A model generated the notes under the pieces. The model searched no databases. It saw only the letters and a list, made by a program, of their open reading frames with translations, and had not been told where the DNA came from. This document shows positions 27,891 through 34,709 of a stretch of 64,000 nt of DNA, piece by piece. The stretch is from Ramlibacter albus (GTDB lineage Bacteria > Pseudomonadota > Gammaproteobacteria > Burkholderiales > Burkholderiaceae_C). The position numbers and the translations under genes were made by a program. The first letter of the stretch is position 1. Every line of letters starts with the position of its first letter. Location of the stretch: NCBI RefSeq assembly GCF_014297445.1, contig NZ_JACORU010000006.1, forward strand, positions 62,001 through 126,000, read 5' to 3'.

Positions 27891-29582
27891 ATGCCCCTGC
27901 CCCCTGCCCCCAACAAGCGCGCCGCCATGCTCCCGCCGGAGGCGTACGACGCCCCGGCCCGCACTTCGCACAAGACGGCGCGAAAAACGGCGGCCCTGCT
28001 GGCGGCGAGCGACAGCCCGCTGCCTGAGCGCCCGCAGGCGCTGGACGAGTTCGACCCCCGTACCGGCGGCGGCGACGCCCATCCTTCTGCCTATGCGGGC
28101 GACCTCGAAACCTACGTCGAGGCCGAGTCGCCGCAGCCCAGGAAGCGGCTGCCCACGCAGGTGGCCGCCAAGCCCAAGAAAGCCAAGCCAACCGGCCCCT
28201 CCAAGCTGTTCGTGCTGGACACCAACGTGCTGATGCACGACCCGATGAGCCTGTTCCGCTTCGAGGAGCACGACATCTTCCTGCCGATGATCGTGCTGGA
28301 GGAGCTGGACGGGCACAAGAAGGGCACGACCGAAGTGGCCCGCAACGCGCGCCAGGTCAGCCGTTCGCTCGATGCGCTGGCCGGCCACCACGGCAGCGAC
28401 ATCAGCCAGGGCCTGAAGCTCGACACCACCGGCCACCGCGAGGCGGGCGGGTGCCTGTTCTTCCAGACGAACCCGCTCGACTCCAAGCTGCCTGCCAGCC
28501 TGCCCCCGGGCAAGGCCGACAACCAGATCCTCGGCGTGGTCGCCGCGCTGCGTGAAAAATTCGCGCCGCGCGAGGTGGTGCTGGTGTCCAAGGACATCAA
28601 CATGCGCGTCAAGGCGCGTGCGCTGGGCCTGGACACCGAGGACTACCGCAACGACAAGACGCTGGACGACCTGGACCTGATGTATTCCGGCGCGCTCGCG
28701 CTGCCGCCGGACTTCTGGGCCAAGCACGGCAAGACGGTGGAGAGCTGGCAGAGCGGGCAGCACACCTTCTACCGGATCACCGGCCCGATCGTGCCCAGCC
28801 TGCTGATCAACCAGTTCGTGTACTTCGAGGCACCGGGCGAGCCCAGCCTCTACGCGCGCGTGACGGAGATCCGCGGCAAGACGGCCGTGCTCAAGACGCT
28901 GAAGGACTACGGCCACCTGAAAAACGCCGTGTGGGGCGTGACCACGCGCAACCGCGAGCAGAACTTCGCGATGAACCTGCTGATGGACCCGGAGATCGAC
29001 TTCGTGACGCTCAGCGGCACGGCCGGCACCGGCAAGACGCTGCTGGCGCTGGCCGCGGGGTTGACGCAGGTGCTGGACGACCGGCGCTACACCGAGATCA
29101 TCATGACCCGCGCAACGGTGAGCGTCGGCGAGGACATCGGTTTCCTGCCCGGCACCGAGGAAGAGAAGATGGGTCCCTGGATGGGCGCCCTCGACGACAA
29201 CCTCGAAGTACTGGGCAAGACCGACAGCGGCGCCGGCGAGTGGGGCCGCGCGGCCACCAACGAGCTGATCCGCAGCCGCATCAAGATCAAGAGCATGAAC
29301 TTCATGCGCGGGCGCACGTTCCTCAACAAGTACGTGATCATCGACGAGGCGCAGAACCTCACGCCCAAGCAGATGAAGACGCTGATCACCCGCGCTGGGC
29401 CGGGCACGAAGATCATCTGCATGGGCAACCTCGCGCAGATCGACACGCCGTACCTGACAGAGGGCTCGTCGGGCCTGACGTTCGCCGTGGACAAGTTCAA
29501 GGGGTGGCCGCACAGCGGGCACATCACCCTGGCGCGCGGCGAGCGCTCGCGGCTGGCGGACTTCGCGAGCGACGTGCTCTAG
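27891..29582 (+). CDS. PhoH family protein with N-terminal PIN domain (PhoH2-like)
   Basis: 563 residues. After a basic disordered N-terminus (1-100) comes a PIN ribonuclease domain (about 104-250) with acidic residues in LFVLDTNVLMHD, VLEELDGHKK and VSKDINMR. A PhoH ATPase follows: Walker A GTAGTGKT at 376-383, Walker B YVIIDEAQN, then LITRAGPGTKIICMGNLAQI. PIN-PhoH fusions are reported to be coupled RNA helicase/RNases, which is known for the family and not tested here. It may be read from its own promoter. Stands alone, 33 bases after a terminator. Confidence 0.93.
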   Translation: MPLPPAPNKRAAMLPPEAYDAPARTSHKTARKTAALLAASDSPLPERPQALDEFDPRTGGGDAHPSAYAGDLETYVEAESPQPRKRLPTQVAAKPKKAKPTGPSKLFVLDTNVLMHDPMSLFRFEEHDIFLPMIVLEELDGHKKGTTEVARNARQVSRSLDALAGHHGSDISQGLKLDTTGHREAGGCLFFQTNPLDSKLPASLPPGKADNQILGVVAALREKFAPREVVLVSKDINMRVKARALGLDTEDYRNDKTLDDLDLMYSGALALPPDFWAKHGKTVESWQSGQHTFYRITGPIVPSLLINQFVYFEAPGEPSLYARVTEIRGKTAVLKTLKDYGHLKNAVWGVTTRNREQNFAMNLLMDPEIDFVTLSGTAGTGKTLLALAAGLTQVLDDRRYTEIIMTRATVSVGEDIGFLPGTEEEKMGPWMGALDDNLEVLGKTDSGAGEWGRAATNELIRSRIKIKSMNFMRGRTFLNKYVIIDEAQNLTPKQMKTLITRAGPGTKIICMGNLAQIDTPYLTEGSSGLTFAVDKFKGWPHSGHITLARGERSRLADFASDVL

Positions 29583-29617
29583 ACACGGCGCCGCGGCGGG
29601 CGGAAACTGCGGCCACG

Positions 29618-30667
29618 ATGCGCCGCGCCGCCCTGCCCTTGCTGCTGCTTCTTGCGTGCAATGCCCACGCGGTGCAGGACTGCGACATCGGCGGCGTGGG
29701 CGTCAACCCCGCCAACGGTGCCACCACGGAAGGCAAGACCGGGATCATGCGCTGCGTGGACCGCGACACGCGCGTCGTGCAGCGCGAGCAGGAGCTGCGG
29801 GGCGGCCGCTTCATCGGTTTGGTGCGTTTCTACGACAACGGCAAGCTCGCCAAGGAACACTCGGTCAACGAGCGGGGCAACCTGCAGGGTCGCGGGCGCG
29901 AGTTCGGGCCGCAGGGTCAGGTGCTGTTCGAGGGTGAGTACGACAACGGCGACCTCAAGGGCATCTCGCGGCGCTTCCATGCGAACGGGCAGCTGCGGGG
30001 CATCACCGTGCACGCGCCGCGGGGCGAGCCTGCGGCGGCGGCTTCGTTCAATGCGCAGGGGCAGCTCACCGAATTGCGTTGCGGCGCGCGGCCGCAGCTC
30101 GCGCCGGCGGTAGACGATGCAAGGCTGTGCGGCTTCGGCTCGCCCTCTTCCGTCGACCTTTACAACGAGCGAGGTGTCCTGCAGTTCAAGGTGAACCTGC
30201 AGGACGGCTTGCGCACGCGCGTTGCGCGCCTCGACGAGCAGGGGCGCGTGCGGCAGCAGGAAGACATCGACCCCGCAAAGCAGTCGCGCCGGCTGCAGCA
30301 GTTCGCCGACAGCGGCACGCTGGTGCGCGACCAGCGCTGGGAGGCCGGGCTTCCGGTGCTCGACGTTCAGCACTACCTGAACGGCCAGCCGCGCACGAAG
30401 ACCGAGTGGAAGGGGTCGCAGATCGTCGAGACCGGCTATGGCGACGATGGGCGCGTGACGACCACCGGGACCTGGGTGAGCGCGCGCGGCGGGCGCCAGC
30501 CTACTGGCACGCACCAGCGCTTCAACGCCGCAGGTCGGCTGGTGGGCGAGTCGACCTACGACGAGCGAGGACGCATCACTCGCGAGAAGGCTTGGGACGA
30601 CGGCGGCACTTTGCTTCGCGACGATGCCGTGTTCGAGGACGGCTCGCGCAAGGCGTTCTCGCGCTAG
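29618..30667 (+). CDS. Secreted MORN-variant (YwqK-like) repeat protein
   Basis: 349 residues with signal peptide MRRAALPLLLLLACNAHA. The mature part is a series of MORN/YwqK-like repeats of the kind VRFYDNGKLAKEHSVNERGN, EFGPQGQVLFEGEYDNGDLK, RRFHANGQLRGITV, TGTWVSARGGRQPTGTHQRF, AAGRLVGESTYDERGRITRE. Four Cys suggest disulfides in the periplasm. Such proteins are loosely labelled 'toxin-antitoxin YwqK antitoxin', a name I would not rely on. Its 3' end overlaps dnaB by four bases, convergent. Confidence 0.85.
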   Translation: MRRAALPLLLLLACNAHAVQDCDIGGVGVNPANGATTEGKTGIMRCVDRDTRVVQREQELRGGRFIGLVRFYDNGKLAKEHSVNERGNLQGRGREFGPQGQVLFEGEYDNGDLKGISRRFHANGQLRGITVHAPRGEPAAAASFNAQGQLTELRCGARPQLAPAVDDARLCGFGSPSSVDLYNERGVLQFKVNLQDGLRTRVARLDEQGRVRQQEDIDPAKQSRRLQQFADSGTLVRDQRWEAGLPVLDVQHYLNGQPRTKTEWKGSQIVETGYGDDGRVTTTGTWVSARGGRQPTGTHQRFNAAGRLVGESTYDERGRITREKAWDDGGTLLRDDAVFEDGSRKAFSR

Positions 30668-33123
30668 AACGCGTCCGTGCCGCTCGCGAGGTTCTCGAAC
30701 TTCGTCAGCTGCTTGATGAACGCCATCTTCACCGTGCCGGTGGGGCCGTTACGCTGCTTGCTGATGATCAGCTCCGAGACGCCGGGCTCCTTGGAGTCCT
30801 TGTTGTAGTAGTCGTCGCGGTAGATGAACATGATCACGTCCGCGTCTTGCTCGATGGCGCCGGATTCGCGCAGGTCGCTCATCATGGGGCGCTTGTCGGT
30901 GCGCGATTCCACGCCACGGGACAGCTGCGACAGCGCGATCACCGGGCAGCCCAGCTCCTTCGCCAGCATCTTCAGGCCCCGCGAGATTTCACCGATGGCC
31001 GTGGCGCGGTTCTCGTCGCTCATGCCCGAGGACACGCTCATGAGCTGCAGGTAGTCGACCACGATCAGCCCCAGCTTGCCGCCGCACTGGCGTGCCAAGC
31101 GACGCGCGTTGGCGCGCAACTCGCTCACCGTGAGGCCCGGCGTTTCGTCGATATGCAGCGAGATGTTGCGCAGCTTCTCGATCGCCTCCGTCAGCCGCGG
31201 CCACTCGTCGTCCGTCAGCTTGCCGGTGCGAAGGTGGCCCTGGTCGATGCGGCCGATCGAGCCTACGATACGGACTGCCAGCTGGCTCGCGCCCATTTCC
31301 ATCGAGAACACCGCAACCGGCAGGCCTTCGTTGAGGGCGACGTGTTCGGCGATGTTGATGGCAAGGGACGTGTTGTGCGTGACGACGTCGCCGTCGGTGA
31401 TGTACAGCTTCGATGGATGGCTGACGGAGATGCACTGGCACTCGGCCTGGCGAGTCGGCTGCACCGACATCACGTTCAAGCGCTTCTGCCGCTGCCACGT
31501 TGCAGGCGCCCGCGCCTGTTTGGCTGCGAGCAGGAAAAGTGAACGTGGCTCGGGATGGCTGATATGGCAGACGTACGCCGGCAGGCCCGGCACCTTGATA
31601 CCGGCCACATTCGTGAATCGAGGCTGCTTGGCCGTGATCGAGCACCACCCACCCAGGGAGCGGACAAGCTCGGCGACATCCTGGGCCATTTGCGCGCTGG
31701 CTGTCGAGAGCCGCACGGTGCCCCACTTCTCCACCCAACCATCGGTGTCCAGCAGTCCGCGCAGGACGTCGAGGCGCGCTTCCTTGCCAGCCTCGAGATA
31801 AAGGCGCGGGATGAACTTGCGATCGCTCGGCAGCCCGGACAGCTGCAATGCATCCAGCGCCACGCGCAGCGGATTCGGTTGCGTGCCCTGCAAGCCCTTC
31901 ACGCGGGCGCGGTCGCGGCGAACGATGCGCCAGTCGTAGGCCTGCGAGTGGACGAGCTCCATGTCGTCGTCGATGCGCGCGGACATCTGCTCCAACGTCT
32001 CGTCCGAAGCCGAAGAGAACAACACGCTCCCGCTGCCTGTCAGGCAGCCGTCCCCGAGCAAAGCGCCGAGCACCCACGGGTCGATGGGCAATGGCTCCTG
32101 GTGCCCGAAGTCTCCGCTCGCACGTTCGATCCACAACCGATTCTGGTATCGCTTGCGCGAGAGAAGGCGAGTGAGTTCAGTCGTATCGACCGTCCGCGGT
32201 GAGTCCCAGTGGCGGCAATTCACTTGCCATAGATGCTCGGCGCAGCACTCCGCCGAGCGGCCATCCGAGAACGTGACCCGATAGACCTGCTTGACCCCTT
32301 GGGGGAACACGCCGGTCACCATGGAAGGGCGGCCGTCGACCGATGCCAACGCGTCGCCGACTTCCAGCTCTCCCATCTGCTTCCAGCCGGTGAGCGTGCG
32401 CACCTTCGCATCGAGCGGCTGCGCCTTGCCCATCGAGGGCCGCGCCGCCAGGATGATCAGGTCCCCCGCCTGCAAACCGCTCGTCATGCGATCGAGGTCA
32501 TAGAACCCGGTCGGCACCCCCGTGATGTCGTTGGGGTTGTCCGCCATCTCCTGCACGCGATCGAGCAGCTGCACCACCAGGCTGTCCATGCCCTGGAAGC
32601 CTTGCTTCATCCGCGAGCCTTCCTCGCCGATGTTGAAGATCTTCTGCTCGGCCTCGTCGAGGATCTTGTCGACGGCCTTGCCTTGCGGGTTGAAGGATGC
32701 GGTGGCGATCTCGTCGGCCGCGCTCACCAGCTTGCGCAGGATGGAGCGCTCGCGGACGATCTCCGCGTAGCGGCGGATGTTGCCCGCGCTGGGCACGTAC
32801 TGCGCCAGCGAGTTGAGGTACGCAAGCCCGCCGACCTCCTCGGCCTTGCCGAGGGATTGCAGCTGCTCGAAGACGGTGACCACGTCCGCCGGCTTCGTGG
32901 CGTTCACCAGGCCGCCGATCGCCGCGAAGATCAGCCGGTGCTCGTAGCGATAGAAGTCCGCATCGGTGAGCAGGTCGCCCATGCGGTCCCACGCGCCGTT
33001 ATCGAGCAGCAGGCCGCCCAGCACGCTCGACTCGGCCTCGATCGAGTGCGGCGGGATGCGCAGCTGCGCGACCTGCTTGTCGCGGGGGAAATCGTCGTCG
33101 GCGGGAGAAAGGACTGCGGACAT
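30664..33123 (-). CDS. dnaB: Replicative DNA helicase DnaB precursor with intein
   Basis: 819 codons from the ATG at 33123 (MSAVLSPADDDFPRDKQVAQ, matching related DnaB N-termini; an in-frame GTG 15 codons upstream adds non-homologous residues). The extein parts are normal: N-terminal DnaB domain (IEAESSVLGGLLLDNGAW), linker, and a RecA-like helicase domain ending TKFENLASGTDAF. Between the Lys and Thr of Walker A, which should read AARPSMGKT, sits a 351-residue insert (31372-32424). Without it the helicase is 468 residues, as in E. coli. Without splicing the ATP site is broken, so splicing must work. DnaB unwinds DNA ahead of the replication fork. Confidence 0.97.
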   Translation of the reverse strand: MSAVLSPADDDFPRDKQVAQLRIPPHSIEAESSVLGGLLLDNGAWDRMGDLLTDADFYRYEHRLIFAAIGGLVNATKPADVVTVFEQLQSLGKAEEVGGLAYLNSLAQYVPSAGNIRRYAEIVRERSILRKLVSAADEIATASFNPQGKAVDKILDEAEQKIFNIGEEGSRMKQGFQGMDSLVVQLLDRVQEMADNPNDITGVPTGFYDLDRMTSGLQAGDLIILAARPSMGKAQPLDAKVRTLTGWKQMGELEVGDALASVDGRPSMVTGVFPQGVKQVYRVTFSDGRSAECCAEHLWQVNCRHWDSPRTVDTTELTRLLSRKRYQNRLWIERASGDFGHQEPLPIDPWVLGALLGDGCLTGSGSVLFSSASDETLEQMSARIDDDMELVHSQAYDWRIVRRDRARVKGLQGTQPNPLRVALDALQLSGLPSDRKFIPRLYLEAGKEARLDVLRGLLDTDGWVEKWGTVRLSTASAQMAQDVAELVRSLGGWCSITAKQPRFTNVAGIKVPGLPAYVCHISHPEPRSLFLLAAKQARAPATWQRQKRLNVMSVQPTRQAECQCISVSHPSKLYITDGDVVTHNTSLAINIAEHVALNEGLPVAVFSMEMGASQLAVRIVGSIGRIDQGHLRTGKLTDDEWPRLTEAIEKLRNISLHIDETPGLTVSELRANARRLARQCGGKLGLIVVDYLQLMSVSSGMSDENRATAIGEISRGLKMLAKELGCPVIALSQLSRGVESRTDKRPMMSDLRESGAIEQDADVIMFIYRDDYYNKDSKEPGVSELIISKQRNGPTGTVKMAFIKQLTKFENLASGTDAF
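31372..32424 (-). mobile_element. Class 3-type intein with LAGLIDADG homing endonuclease in DnaB
   Basis: The insert begins AQPLDAKVRTLTGWKQMGEL and ends in VVTHN, followed by Thr as +1. Position 1 is Ala, not Cys or Ser, so the usual first nucleophile is missing. In its place the class 3 signature is present: a block B Trp (W66, in AEHLWQV), a block F Cys (C331, in ECQCISV) and a Thr before the terminal His-Asn (T349, H350, N351). Residues about 115-260 carry two dodecapeptide motifs, VLGALLGDG and LRGLLDTDG, with their acidic residues, so the endonuclease may be active. The insert looks slightly less GC-rich than its flanks by eye. Confidence 0.93.
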
Positions 33124-33208
33124 GGAGGAGGAAGAGCGGATGCTACGCGGCACGGTCGGGCCCGTCACGGGACAAGTATGTGGATAACGAGTGGGTTTGC
33201 GGTGGCTA

Positions 33209-33293: not shown

Positions 33294-33746
33294 TTAGGCG
33301 GTTTCGCCGTACACCGTGACGTTGATCTCCACGACCACGTCGGTGTGCAGCGCCACGTTCACGTTGCTGTCGCCCACCATCTTGATCGGGCCGTTGGGCA
33401 TGCGCACCTGGGCCTTGACGACCTTGTAGCCTTGCTTGTTCAGCTCTTCGGCGATGTCGAAGTTGGTGACGGAGCCGAACAGGCGGCCGTCCACGCCGGC
33501 CTTCTGGGTCAGCTTGATGGTCGTGCCGGCGAGCTTCTCGCCTTGGGCTTGCGCGTCGGCCAGCTTGGCGGCGGCGGCCTTTTCCAGTTCGGCGCGCTTG
33601 GCTTCGAATTCGGCCTTGTTGGCTTCCGTCGCGCGGCGTGCACGGCCCGTCGGGATCAGGAAGTTGCGGGCATAACCGTCCTTGACCTTGGCGATCTCGC
33701 CGAGCTCACCGACGTTGGGGACTTTCTCGAGCAGGATGACTTGCAT
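33294..33746 (-). CDS. rplI: 50S ribosomal protein L9
   Basis: 150 residues, standard length, beginning [20 protein letters not shown] with the [20 protein letters not shown] segment typical of bacterial L9. Binds 23S rRNA near the L1 stalk base. Last gene of the rpsF-priB-rpsR-rplI group, 10 bases after rpsR. A hairpin and a terminator follow. Confidence 0.99.
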
Positions 33747-33756
33747 TGCGTGCTCC

Positions 33757-34038
33757 TCAGATCTTGTGCTGGTCGCTGTAGGGCAGCAGGGCCAGGAAGC
33801 GCGCGCGCTTGATGGCGGTGTTCAGCTGCCGCTGGTAGATCGCGCGCGTGCCGGTCAGGCGCGCGGGGATGATCTTGCCGTTCTCGCTGATGAAATCGCG
33901 CAGCGTGTCGACGTCCTTGTAGTCGATCTCCTCGACGCCGGCGACGGTGAAGCGGCAGAAGCGCTTGCGCTTGAACAGCAGGGACTGCGTGTTGCGCTTG
34001 GGGCGCTTGTCCTTGTTGAACTTCTTGAAGGTGGCCAT
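33757..34038 (-). CDS. rpsR: 30S ribosomal protein S18
   Basis: 93 residues beginning [20 protein letters not shown], with the conserved [20 protein letters not shown] and [20 protein letters not shown]. Binds together with S6 on the 30S platform, which fits its place in the rpsF operon. Separated from priB by 21 bases. Confidence 0.99.
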
Positions 34039-34059
34039 GTGGGACCTCTTTCGATGAAT

Positions 34060-34347
34060 CTAATCTTGCTGGAATGACTGGATATGCAGAACCGGGTGCT
34101 TGCCGTTGCGCGGGGCCGCCAGGAAACCGTGGAACCGGAAGCCTGAACCGACTGCCTGCCGCGCGAGCGTTTCGGCCAACGTGCCGAACGCCACGGCCCT
34201 GAGCTCCACTTTCACCTGCCGCCTGCCGCCTGCCTCTTCGACTTCGGACTCGTGTTCGAGCCTCAAATCGACGGCGGGCAGCCCGGCCGGGGTGTGCCGC
34301 AGGGCCGAAACCTCCGCGACGCGGGCGCCCAGGACAACCTGGTTTAC
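34060..34347 (-). CDS. priB: Primosomal replication protein N (PriB), start codon unclear
   Basis: The reading frame between rpsF and rpsR encodes a 95-residue OB-fold protein: [20 protein letters not shown], then [13 protein letters not shown] and a C-terminus [20 protein letters not shown]. This is the Burkholderiales PriB pattern. The homologous first codon, which I expect to be GTG, reads GTA here (34347-34345) and overlaps the rpsF TAA. No ATG, GTG or TTG occurs in frame until TTG at 34266, which would remove the first beta strands. CTG at 34332 is another option. Boundaries are given for the homologous start. PriB binds single-stranded DNA and helps restart forks. Confidence 0.8.
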
Positions 34348-34709
34348 GACTGGAACTCCGCCTGCTGGGCCTTGCGGGCTTCCTCGCGCTCGACGGTCTT
34401 CATCATCGAGGACGGGCCCGTGTCGGCCTTCTTGCGCACCACGGTGAGGTGGCGCAGCACGGCGTCGTTGAAGCGGAAGGCATGCTCCAGCTCACCCATC
34501 ACGGCCTGGTCGGCCTCGATGTTGATGCACAGGAAGTGGGCCTTGGCCAGCTTGTTGATCTGGTAGGCGAGCTGGCGGCGACCCCAGTCCTCGACGCGGT
34601 GGACCTTGCCGCCGCCGGTGGTGATCATGCCCTTGTAACGCTCCAGCATGGCCGGAACCTGCTCGCTTTGATCCGGGTGGATCAGCAAGACGATCTCGTA
34701 GTGACGCAT
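34344..34709 (-). CDS. rpsF: 30S ribosomal protein S6
   Basis: 121 residues starting [20 protein letters not shown]; the conserved [20 protein letters not shown] and [20 protein letters not shown] follow. The C-terminal tail is short and lacks the long Glu run of E. coli S6. First gene of the ribosomal-primosomal operon with its own promoter upstream. Confidence 0.99.

Follow-up and report, generated by a model that had tools for sequence, protein, structure and literature searches.

The window analyzed here, a stretch of 64,000 nucleotides of the Ramlibacter albus genome (contig NZ_JACORU010000006.1, positions 62,001 to 126,000 of the forward strand), encodes on its minus strand the replicative helicase DnaB, which is interrupted by an insert of 351 amino acids. 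Judged from sequence comparisons, this insert is with a probability of about 0.94 a mobile intein of class 3, complete in length, that occupies site b of the chromosomal DnaB. The dnaB precursor frame (30664..33168, minus strand) encodes 834 amino acids from a GTG or 819 amino acids from the ATG at 33121-33123. The N-extein (32425..33168, minus strand) ends with RPSMGK, i.e., with the Walker A motif through its Lys, the intein (31372..32424, minus strand) comprises precursor residues 249-599 from A1 to N351, starting with AQPLDA and ending with VVTHN, and the C-extein (30667..31371, minus strand) opens with the Walker A Thr as residue +1. The insert is in frame and separates the Walker A Lys from the Thr at the junction RPSMGK/TSLA (the slash marks the insertion point); its identification is backed by the junctions, by empty-site alleles and by related inteins. 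The precursor matches the DnaB family TIGR00665 with 561 bits, and Pfam assigns the N- and C-terminal DnaB domains and a LAGLIDADG_3 domain (1e-7), DnaB_C being divided by the insert. Site b of DnaB was described earlier (PMC6195587; this and the other papers are cited from excerpts), and the insertion into the P-loop before its hydroxyl residue, seen in the junction, in the empty alleles and in the divided DnaB_C, places the intein at this site. Across the assembly of 6.15 Mb (99.68% complete) a single DnaB match was found. The original prediction, made from the letters of the DNA alone, had given the exact coordinates of the intein, which is in frame on the minus strand, with A1, W66, C331, T349, H350, N351 and Thr+1 all at the positions found here, and its placement of the insertion between Lys and Thr is borne out by the junction and by the empty-site alleles. 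The spliced helicase of 468 residues that it expected is obtained if translation starts at the ATG (codon 16), while the first GTG gives 483 amino acids.

Class 3 inteins are defined by the WCT triplet of Trp B:12, Cys F:4 and Thr G:5 (PMC5222942; PMC3196547), and they have His B:10, His G:6, Asn G:7 and a +1 residue that is Ser or Thr and rarely Cys (PMC5222942). The window intein has no Cys, Ser or Thr at residue 1 and possesses all of the other residues. Ala1 (32422..32424, minus strand) is a non-nucleophile at the N-terminus, where class 1 inteins have a nucleophile; block B, DGRSAECCAEHLWQ (32224..32265, minus strand), contains Cys61 (B:7), His64 (B:10) and Trp66 (B:12); Cys331 (F:4; 31432..31434, minus strand) is the predicted initiating nucleophile; Thr349-His350-Asn351 (G:5-G:7; 31372..31380, minus strand) form the intein end; and Thr+1 (G:8; 31369..31371, minus strand) would be the Walker A hydroxyl residue once spliced. 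W66, C331, T349, H64, H350 and N351 are invariant in an alignment of 103 rows, and Ala1 is present in 101 of them. These rows, 82 at the DnaB site (the window's own included) and 21 elsewhere, represent 91 distinct sequences and were obtained from 117 matching loci after removal of four duplicates (L001, L115-L117) and of ten loci with a partial match or without an adjoining GK junction (L028, L064, L066, L068, L069, L073, L111-L114). A pattern-free search of the family yielded 18 full-length inteins, all at ARPSMGK/T and all with A1, H64, W66, C331, T349, H350 and N351, as well as with Cys61 (18/18) and, in 17 of 18, Asp125. Fifteen of the 18 are identical to sequences among the 103 rows and three are new, which indicates that the pattern search had missed few. 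W, C and T are also kept in all nine further pattern-free loci (L111, and L144-L151 from phage and plasmid relatives found by tblastn).

Some points weigh against assigning the intein to class 3 on these grounds: two of the six patterns used for searching include W66 or C331, the aligned rows lack independence, and the best match among solved structures found by phmmer is gp41-1 engineered to WCT (7e-9), a class 1 intein that also matches in its wild-type form (6e-7). The class 3 DnaB inteins 6rix (E 1e-7) and 6bs8 (E 3e-7) were matched as well. As gp41-1 belongs to class 1, similarity alone leaves the class unsettled, and it is the signature that fixes it. One might read the insert as a former class 1 intein whose first nucleophile was lost recently and which is now either inactive or takes the class 2 route to splicing; the Ala at position 1 and the presence of gp41-1 among the closest solved structures would suit such a derivative. 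This is hardly probable at all, since Ala1 is shared by nearly all rows, W, C and T are invariant, the signature agrees with class 3 as defined (PMC5222942), and the only dnaB found is otherwise intact and hence should splice. A lack of WCT conservation had been named in the original prediction as a finding that would speak against class 3, and the invariance of the triplet in 103 of 103 rows, together with the uninterrupted alleles of congeners and the occurrence of dnaB as a single copy, supports the class 3 assignment instead.

In the genus Ramlibacter, empty, occupied and endonuclease-decayed dnaB alleles coexist. Among 60 genomes (own included), 48 have an uninterrupted dnaB, i.e., both DnaB parts abut with the break at query residues 249 and 599/600, four are occupied (G000, G007, G022, and G028), and eight are undecided, with no match or a partial, frame-broken or only distant one (G030, G031, G034, G040, G041, G043, G048, and G059). 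When uninterrupted loci were fetched and read at base level, RPSMGK was joined directly to T in 26 of 26, which shows that the insertion is exact and that no host codon was lost. Because these 26 empty congeners are contiguous and the same junction is occupied in many other bacteria, the insert does not reflect chance. G007 and R. cellulosilyticus (L005) carry identical inteins. Of 299 genomes drawn from the family 26 match, namely the own genome, 20 close copies (at least 60% identical; 18 full length, L169 cut by a contig end and G229 broken) and five genomes with weak matches only (G109, G191, G241, G244, and G269). The hosts at the DnaB site include Ramlibacter, Thiobacillus, Malikia, Giesbergeria, Rhizobacter, Burkholderia, Paraburkholderia and Trinickia. 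A class 3-like intein at another site was observed in genome G006 of the genus Ramlibacter, the dnaB of which is uninterrupted: two places on one contig (L111-L114) carry a Pro-initial intein, of 363 amino acids in L111, with the features QHRW, RCI and PTHN, that sits between AAQLGA and TEMGSN.

LAGLIDADG homing endonucleases possess two LAGLIDADG motifs, each ending in an acidic residue. Two such motifs are found in the window intein, within a homing endonuclease domain of approximately residues 108-305 (31510..32103, minus strand; approximate limits) that is assigned by LAGLIDADG_3 and by Foldseek matches to PI-SceI and I-DmoI. The first, WVLGALLGDGCL (32041..32076, minus strand), contains Asp125, and the second, LRGLLDTDGWV (31732..31764, minus strand), contains Asp226 and Asp228; their cores LLGDG and LLDTDG are intact. 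The first Asp is present in 71 of 82 DnaB-site rows, and all 82 have Asp at the position of Asp228. An AlphaFold model of the intein with five extein residues per side, calculated from a 79-row alignment, has a mean predicted local distance difference test score of 93.6 and shows two domains. With this model Foldseek retrieved PI-SceI structures that align along the entire chain (15-18% identity, lowest E 3e-16), the class 3 inteins 6riy (2e-5) and 6bs8 (3e-5), and I-DmoI (5e-5). The ratio of nonsynonymous to synonymous substitutions (dN/dS) over 17 pairs, which were chosen by us, share members and in several cases are near silent-site saturation, was 0.05-0.26 for the endonuclease part and 0.03-0.19 for the splicing part; the extein values, which were calculated without alignment gaps, were set aside for the pairs L009/L014, L010/L014, L006/L057, L107/L109, L107/L110, and L108/L109. 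The acidic dodecapeptide motifs noted in the original prediction are part of a complete endonuclease domain that has been under purifying selection in relatives.

Whether this endonuclease is still active has to be weighed against the decay seen elsewhere. The congener G028 (L110) has an intein of 320 amino acids in which LLGSG and LLGSDE replace the two motifs, with W, C and T intact, and the pair containing this decayed copy also has a low dN/dS of 0.26, a point against reading the low ratios as a sign of activity: they inform on the past of the family and not on its present. The same class 3 intein might accordingly be kept in R. albus only by vertical descent, with a dead endonuclease, as the loss of acidic residues in G028 and the absence of the first Asp from 11 of 82 DnaB-site rows could suggest. 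We regard this as somewhat doubtful, since the copy is of full length, retains Asp125, Asp226 and Asp228 and gives a confident two-domain model, and the domain has low dN/dS in relatives, with the reservation made for the decayed copy. The shortened DnaB-site inteins, L110 and L057 (299 amino acids, from a Giesbergeria metagenome-assembled genome, MAG), look like steps toward mini-inteins such as the mycobacterial ones. Genome G229 (L171/L177) has a broken dnaB intein, in which residues 1-113 match in one frame and residues 144-351 in another; the break falls within the endonuclease region and reflects either an assembly error or a decaying endonuclease, and L069 looks similar.

That the intein is mobile is further suggested by the disagreement between intein and extein histories. 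The exteins are 90-92% identical to those of the three other occupied congeners, the inteins only 67-75%. Conversely, it shares 74% identity with the intein of the Nitrosomonadales MAG L004 and 70% with the one of the Lysobacteraceae MAG L011, with exteins of only 58 and 57% identity, respectively, and the extein tree places L004 and L011 apart from Ramlibacter and relatives. Contigs from MAGs are possibly misbinned, as seen for L014, which is titled Chitinophaga and groups with Malikia on both trees. On an intein tree of 70 rows, which omits L005 and six long viral rows, a single clade was rejected in approximately unbiased (AU) tests for two Lysobacterales (p-AU 6e-10) and for L002, L027, L030 and L033, which stand together on exteins (p-AU 3e-7). 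A tree of dnaB DNA from 30 Ramlibacter and three outgroup rows, its 26 empty rows being the best-scoring and not a random set, has the four occupied alleles in four places, and one clade was rejected (p-AU 2e-8); the groups for all AU tests were chosen after the trees or identities had been seen. Homing gains appear to be the simplest reading of this scattered occupancy. Against it stands that losses could also yield such a pattern. A single clade of the four Ramlibacter inteins is not rejected on the intein tree (p-AU 0.54), so that several separate entries from other genera are not demonstrated; the intein may have moved within the genus or been lost from some of its members. Synonymous divergence from G007 amounts to 1.12 in the splicing part, 0.87 in the endonuclease part and, calculated on aligned sequences, 0.48 in the exteins. 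GC content at third codon positions is 0.82 in the intein compared with 0.92 in the exteins, and codon bias is weaker in the intein, for which reason the synonymous gap was dropped as proof of separate arrival. The view that the housekeeping dnaB copy is a good record of transfer holds insofar as the two histories disagree; this record, however, points to movement among bacterial chromosomes, with no close phage relative among the matches.

The closest relatives of the window intein are bacterial dnaB inteins with up to 76% identity (L003), while the best viral contig (L076) reaches 54% and, of 569 phage records that matched, the best one listed reaches 41%. A plasmid donor was considered and rejected, the best plasmid match found among 36 being only 38% identical. 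Given that viral and phage matches are only distant, recent transfer from a phage into dnaB was not adopted. Relatives of the intein also split GK/T or GK/S elsewhere, in phage replicative helicase or DNA helicase genes, in unannotated genes and in a megaplasmid gene, and many viral relatives have the junction GHGIGK/S. A distant branch (28-33% identity; L074, L075, L089-L106) splits GHGIGK/S in enterobacterial genomes and viral contigs; its host protein presumably resembles the large terminases. On the midpoint-rooted tree the 24 viral rows need four changes, and most of them branch apart from the bacterial DnaB inteins, although the viral L076 groups with two betaproteobacterial inteins. This placement fits the phage origin proposed for class 3 inteins (PMC3196547; PMC5050341) without testing it, and insertion between the Lys and Thr of a P-loop was called classic (PMC5050341). 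The split GK/T and GK/S genes of phages and viral contigs, the small number of changes and the published proposal (PMC3196547; PMC5050341) would be in line with an intein that reached dnaB directly from a phage. Such a source is distinctly unlikely, as the viral contig and the phage record are far less similar than the bacterial contig, the nearest rows on the tree are bacterial, and no phage family was matched among the 14 neighboring frames scanned (two of which had no match at all). The phage connection originally drawn is the weaker part of that interpretation: phage ancestry of the class draws on the literature and the midpoint-rooted tree.

Splicing of the class 3 intein would proceed by steps taken over from characterized class 3 inteins. 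In the precursor the Walker A Lys and Thr lie 351 residues apart, which should preclude normal ATP binding. Cys331 would attack the Lys-Ala1 bond directly to form a first branched intermediate, the acyl group would be transferred to Thr+1 resulting in a second branched intermediate, cyclization of Asn351 would free the intein and an acyl shift would then restore a seamless GKT. As Thr+1 would then serve as the Walker A Thr, a helicase that keeps the intein should lack activity, which would make splicing essential; a comparable double role of the +1 residue in splicing and in the P-loop was described for the Ser of DnaBi1 (PMC6195587). The dependence of helicase activity on splicing, as claimed originally, is supported by inference from signature conservation, from the alleles without the insert and from the finding of only one dnaB in the genome. 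The LAGLIDADG domain would cleave dnaB alleles that lack the intein, at the codons of Walker A, and repair would then copy the intein into the cut allele.

In DnaBi1 of Mycobacterium smegmatis, H2O2 blocks splicing by way of a disulfide between Cys48 and Cys118 (PMC6195587), and zinc is inhibitory when bound to Cys118 (PMC7360933). In the inteins compared here, residue 47, which aligns to Cys48 of DnaBi1, is never Cys (0/103 rows; V, F, I, T, L or A), and the known DnaBi1-type disulfide therefore cannot form. The intein could nevertheless be retained as a conditional switch that holds up maturation of the helicase in stressed cells when Cys331, with Cys61 close to it, is oxidized or binds zinc. 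The inhibition of DnaBi1, which has the same site and class, by H2O2 (PMC6195587) and zinc (PMC7360933) would favor such a role, as would the retention of Cys61 in 79 of 82 DnaB-site rows and in all 18 pattern-free inteins (overlapping sets). It is nonetheless unlikely: the Cys48 equivalent is absent, 48 of 60 genomes of the genus run dnaB without an intein, and conservation of the Cys may be structural. A wider version is quite unlikely and is offered as speculation, namely that a widespread bacterial branch of DnaB class 3 inteins with CxxH uses a reversible Cys61-Cys331 disulfide or zinc clamp to pause helicase maturation, constituting a redox checkpoint that is independent of the mycobacterial Cys48 switch and is kept by otherwise selfish inteins.

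The surroundings of dnaB are those of a chromosomal housekeeping gene, with rplI, rpsR, priB and rpsF located upstream (33294..34709, minus strand). On the opposite side a PIN-PhoH gene is encoded at 27891-29582 on the plus strand, with an uninterrupted Walker A motif, GTAGTGKT; PhoH is another host of class 3 inteins in mycobacteria (PMC6195587). Between phoH and dnaB a frame at 28931-30667 (plus strand) has a MORN_2-type repeat match within a longer mechanical open reading frame.

Among known systems, M. smegmatis DnaBi1 and the M. leprae DnaB intein share with the window intein the gene, the P-loop site b, the WCT triplet and a +1 residue that is the P-loop hydroxyl residue (PMC6195587; PMC5222942), and DnaBi1 likewise has Ala1. 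The mycobacterial DnaB mini-inteins lack an endonuclease and have Ser+1, whereas the window intein has a full-length endonuclease and Thr+1; block B of DnaBi1 furthermore reads DxxH where the window intein has CxxH, and its Cys48 aligns to a Val. The IcmO intein of Burkholderia vietnamiensis, a betaproteobacterial class 3 intein already in print, was shown to splice and differs in being a plasmid-borne mini-intein in another host gene with Cys+1 (PMC5222942). Class 3 inteins also occur among mycobacteriophage inteins, of which TerL1-a has the same Lys/Thr junction type in another host protein, within the P-loop of a terminase (PMC5050341). In titles and abstract openings of the open-access literature nothing was found on the present bacterial DnaB intein family, and none paired Ramlibacter with an intein. 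The other bacterial chromosomal DnaB inteins have the same site and signature and mostly the same length with an endonuclease, at 45-76% identity to the window intein. PI-SceI, the yeast VMA intein and a class 1 intein, has the closest full-length fold, a splicing domain with an inserted LAGLIDADG endonuclease, in another host protein and at only 15-18% identity. The published chromosomal class 3 DnaB inteins cited here are, in the excerpts used, mycobacterial mini-inteins without an endonuclease. What R. albus and its relatives add is the endonuclease-bearing form at the same DnaB site, across many Proteobacteria and with empty, occupied and decayed alleles in one genus. As judged from these sequences, it is a known type of system showing clear signs of mobility and not a new kind of system.

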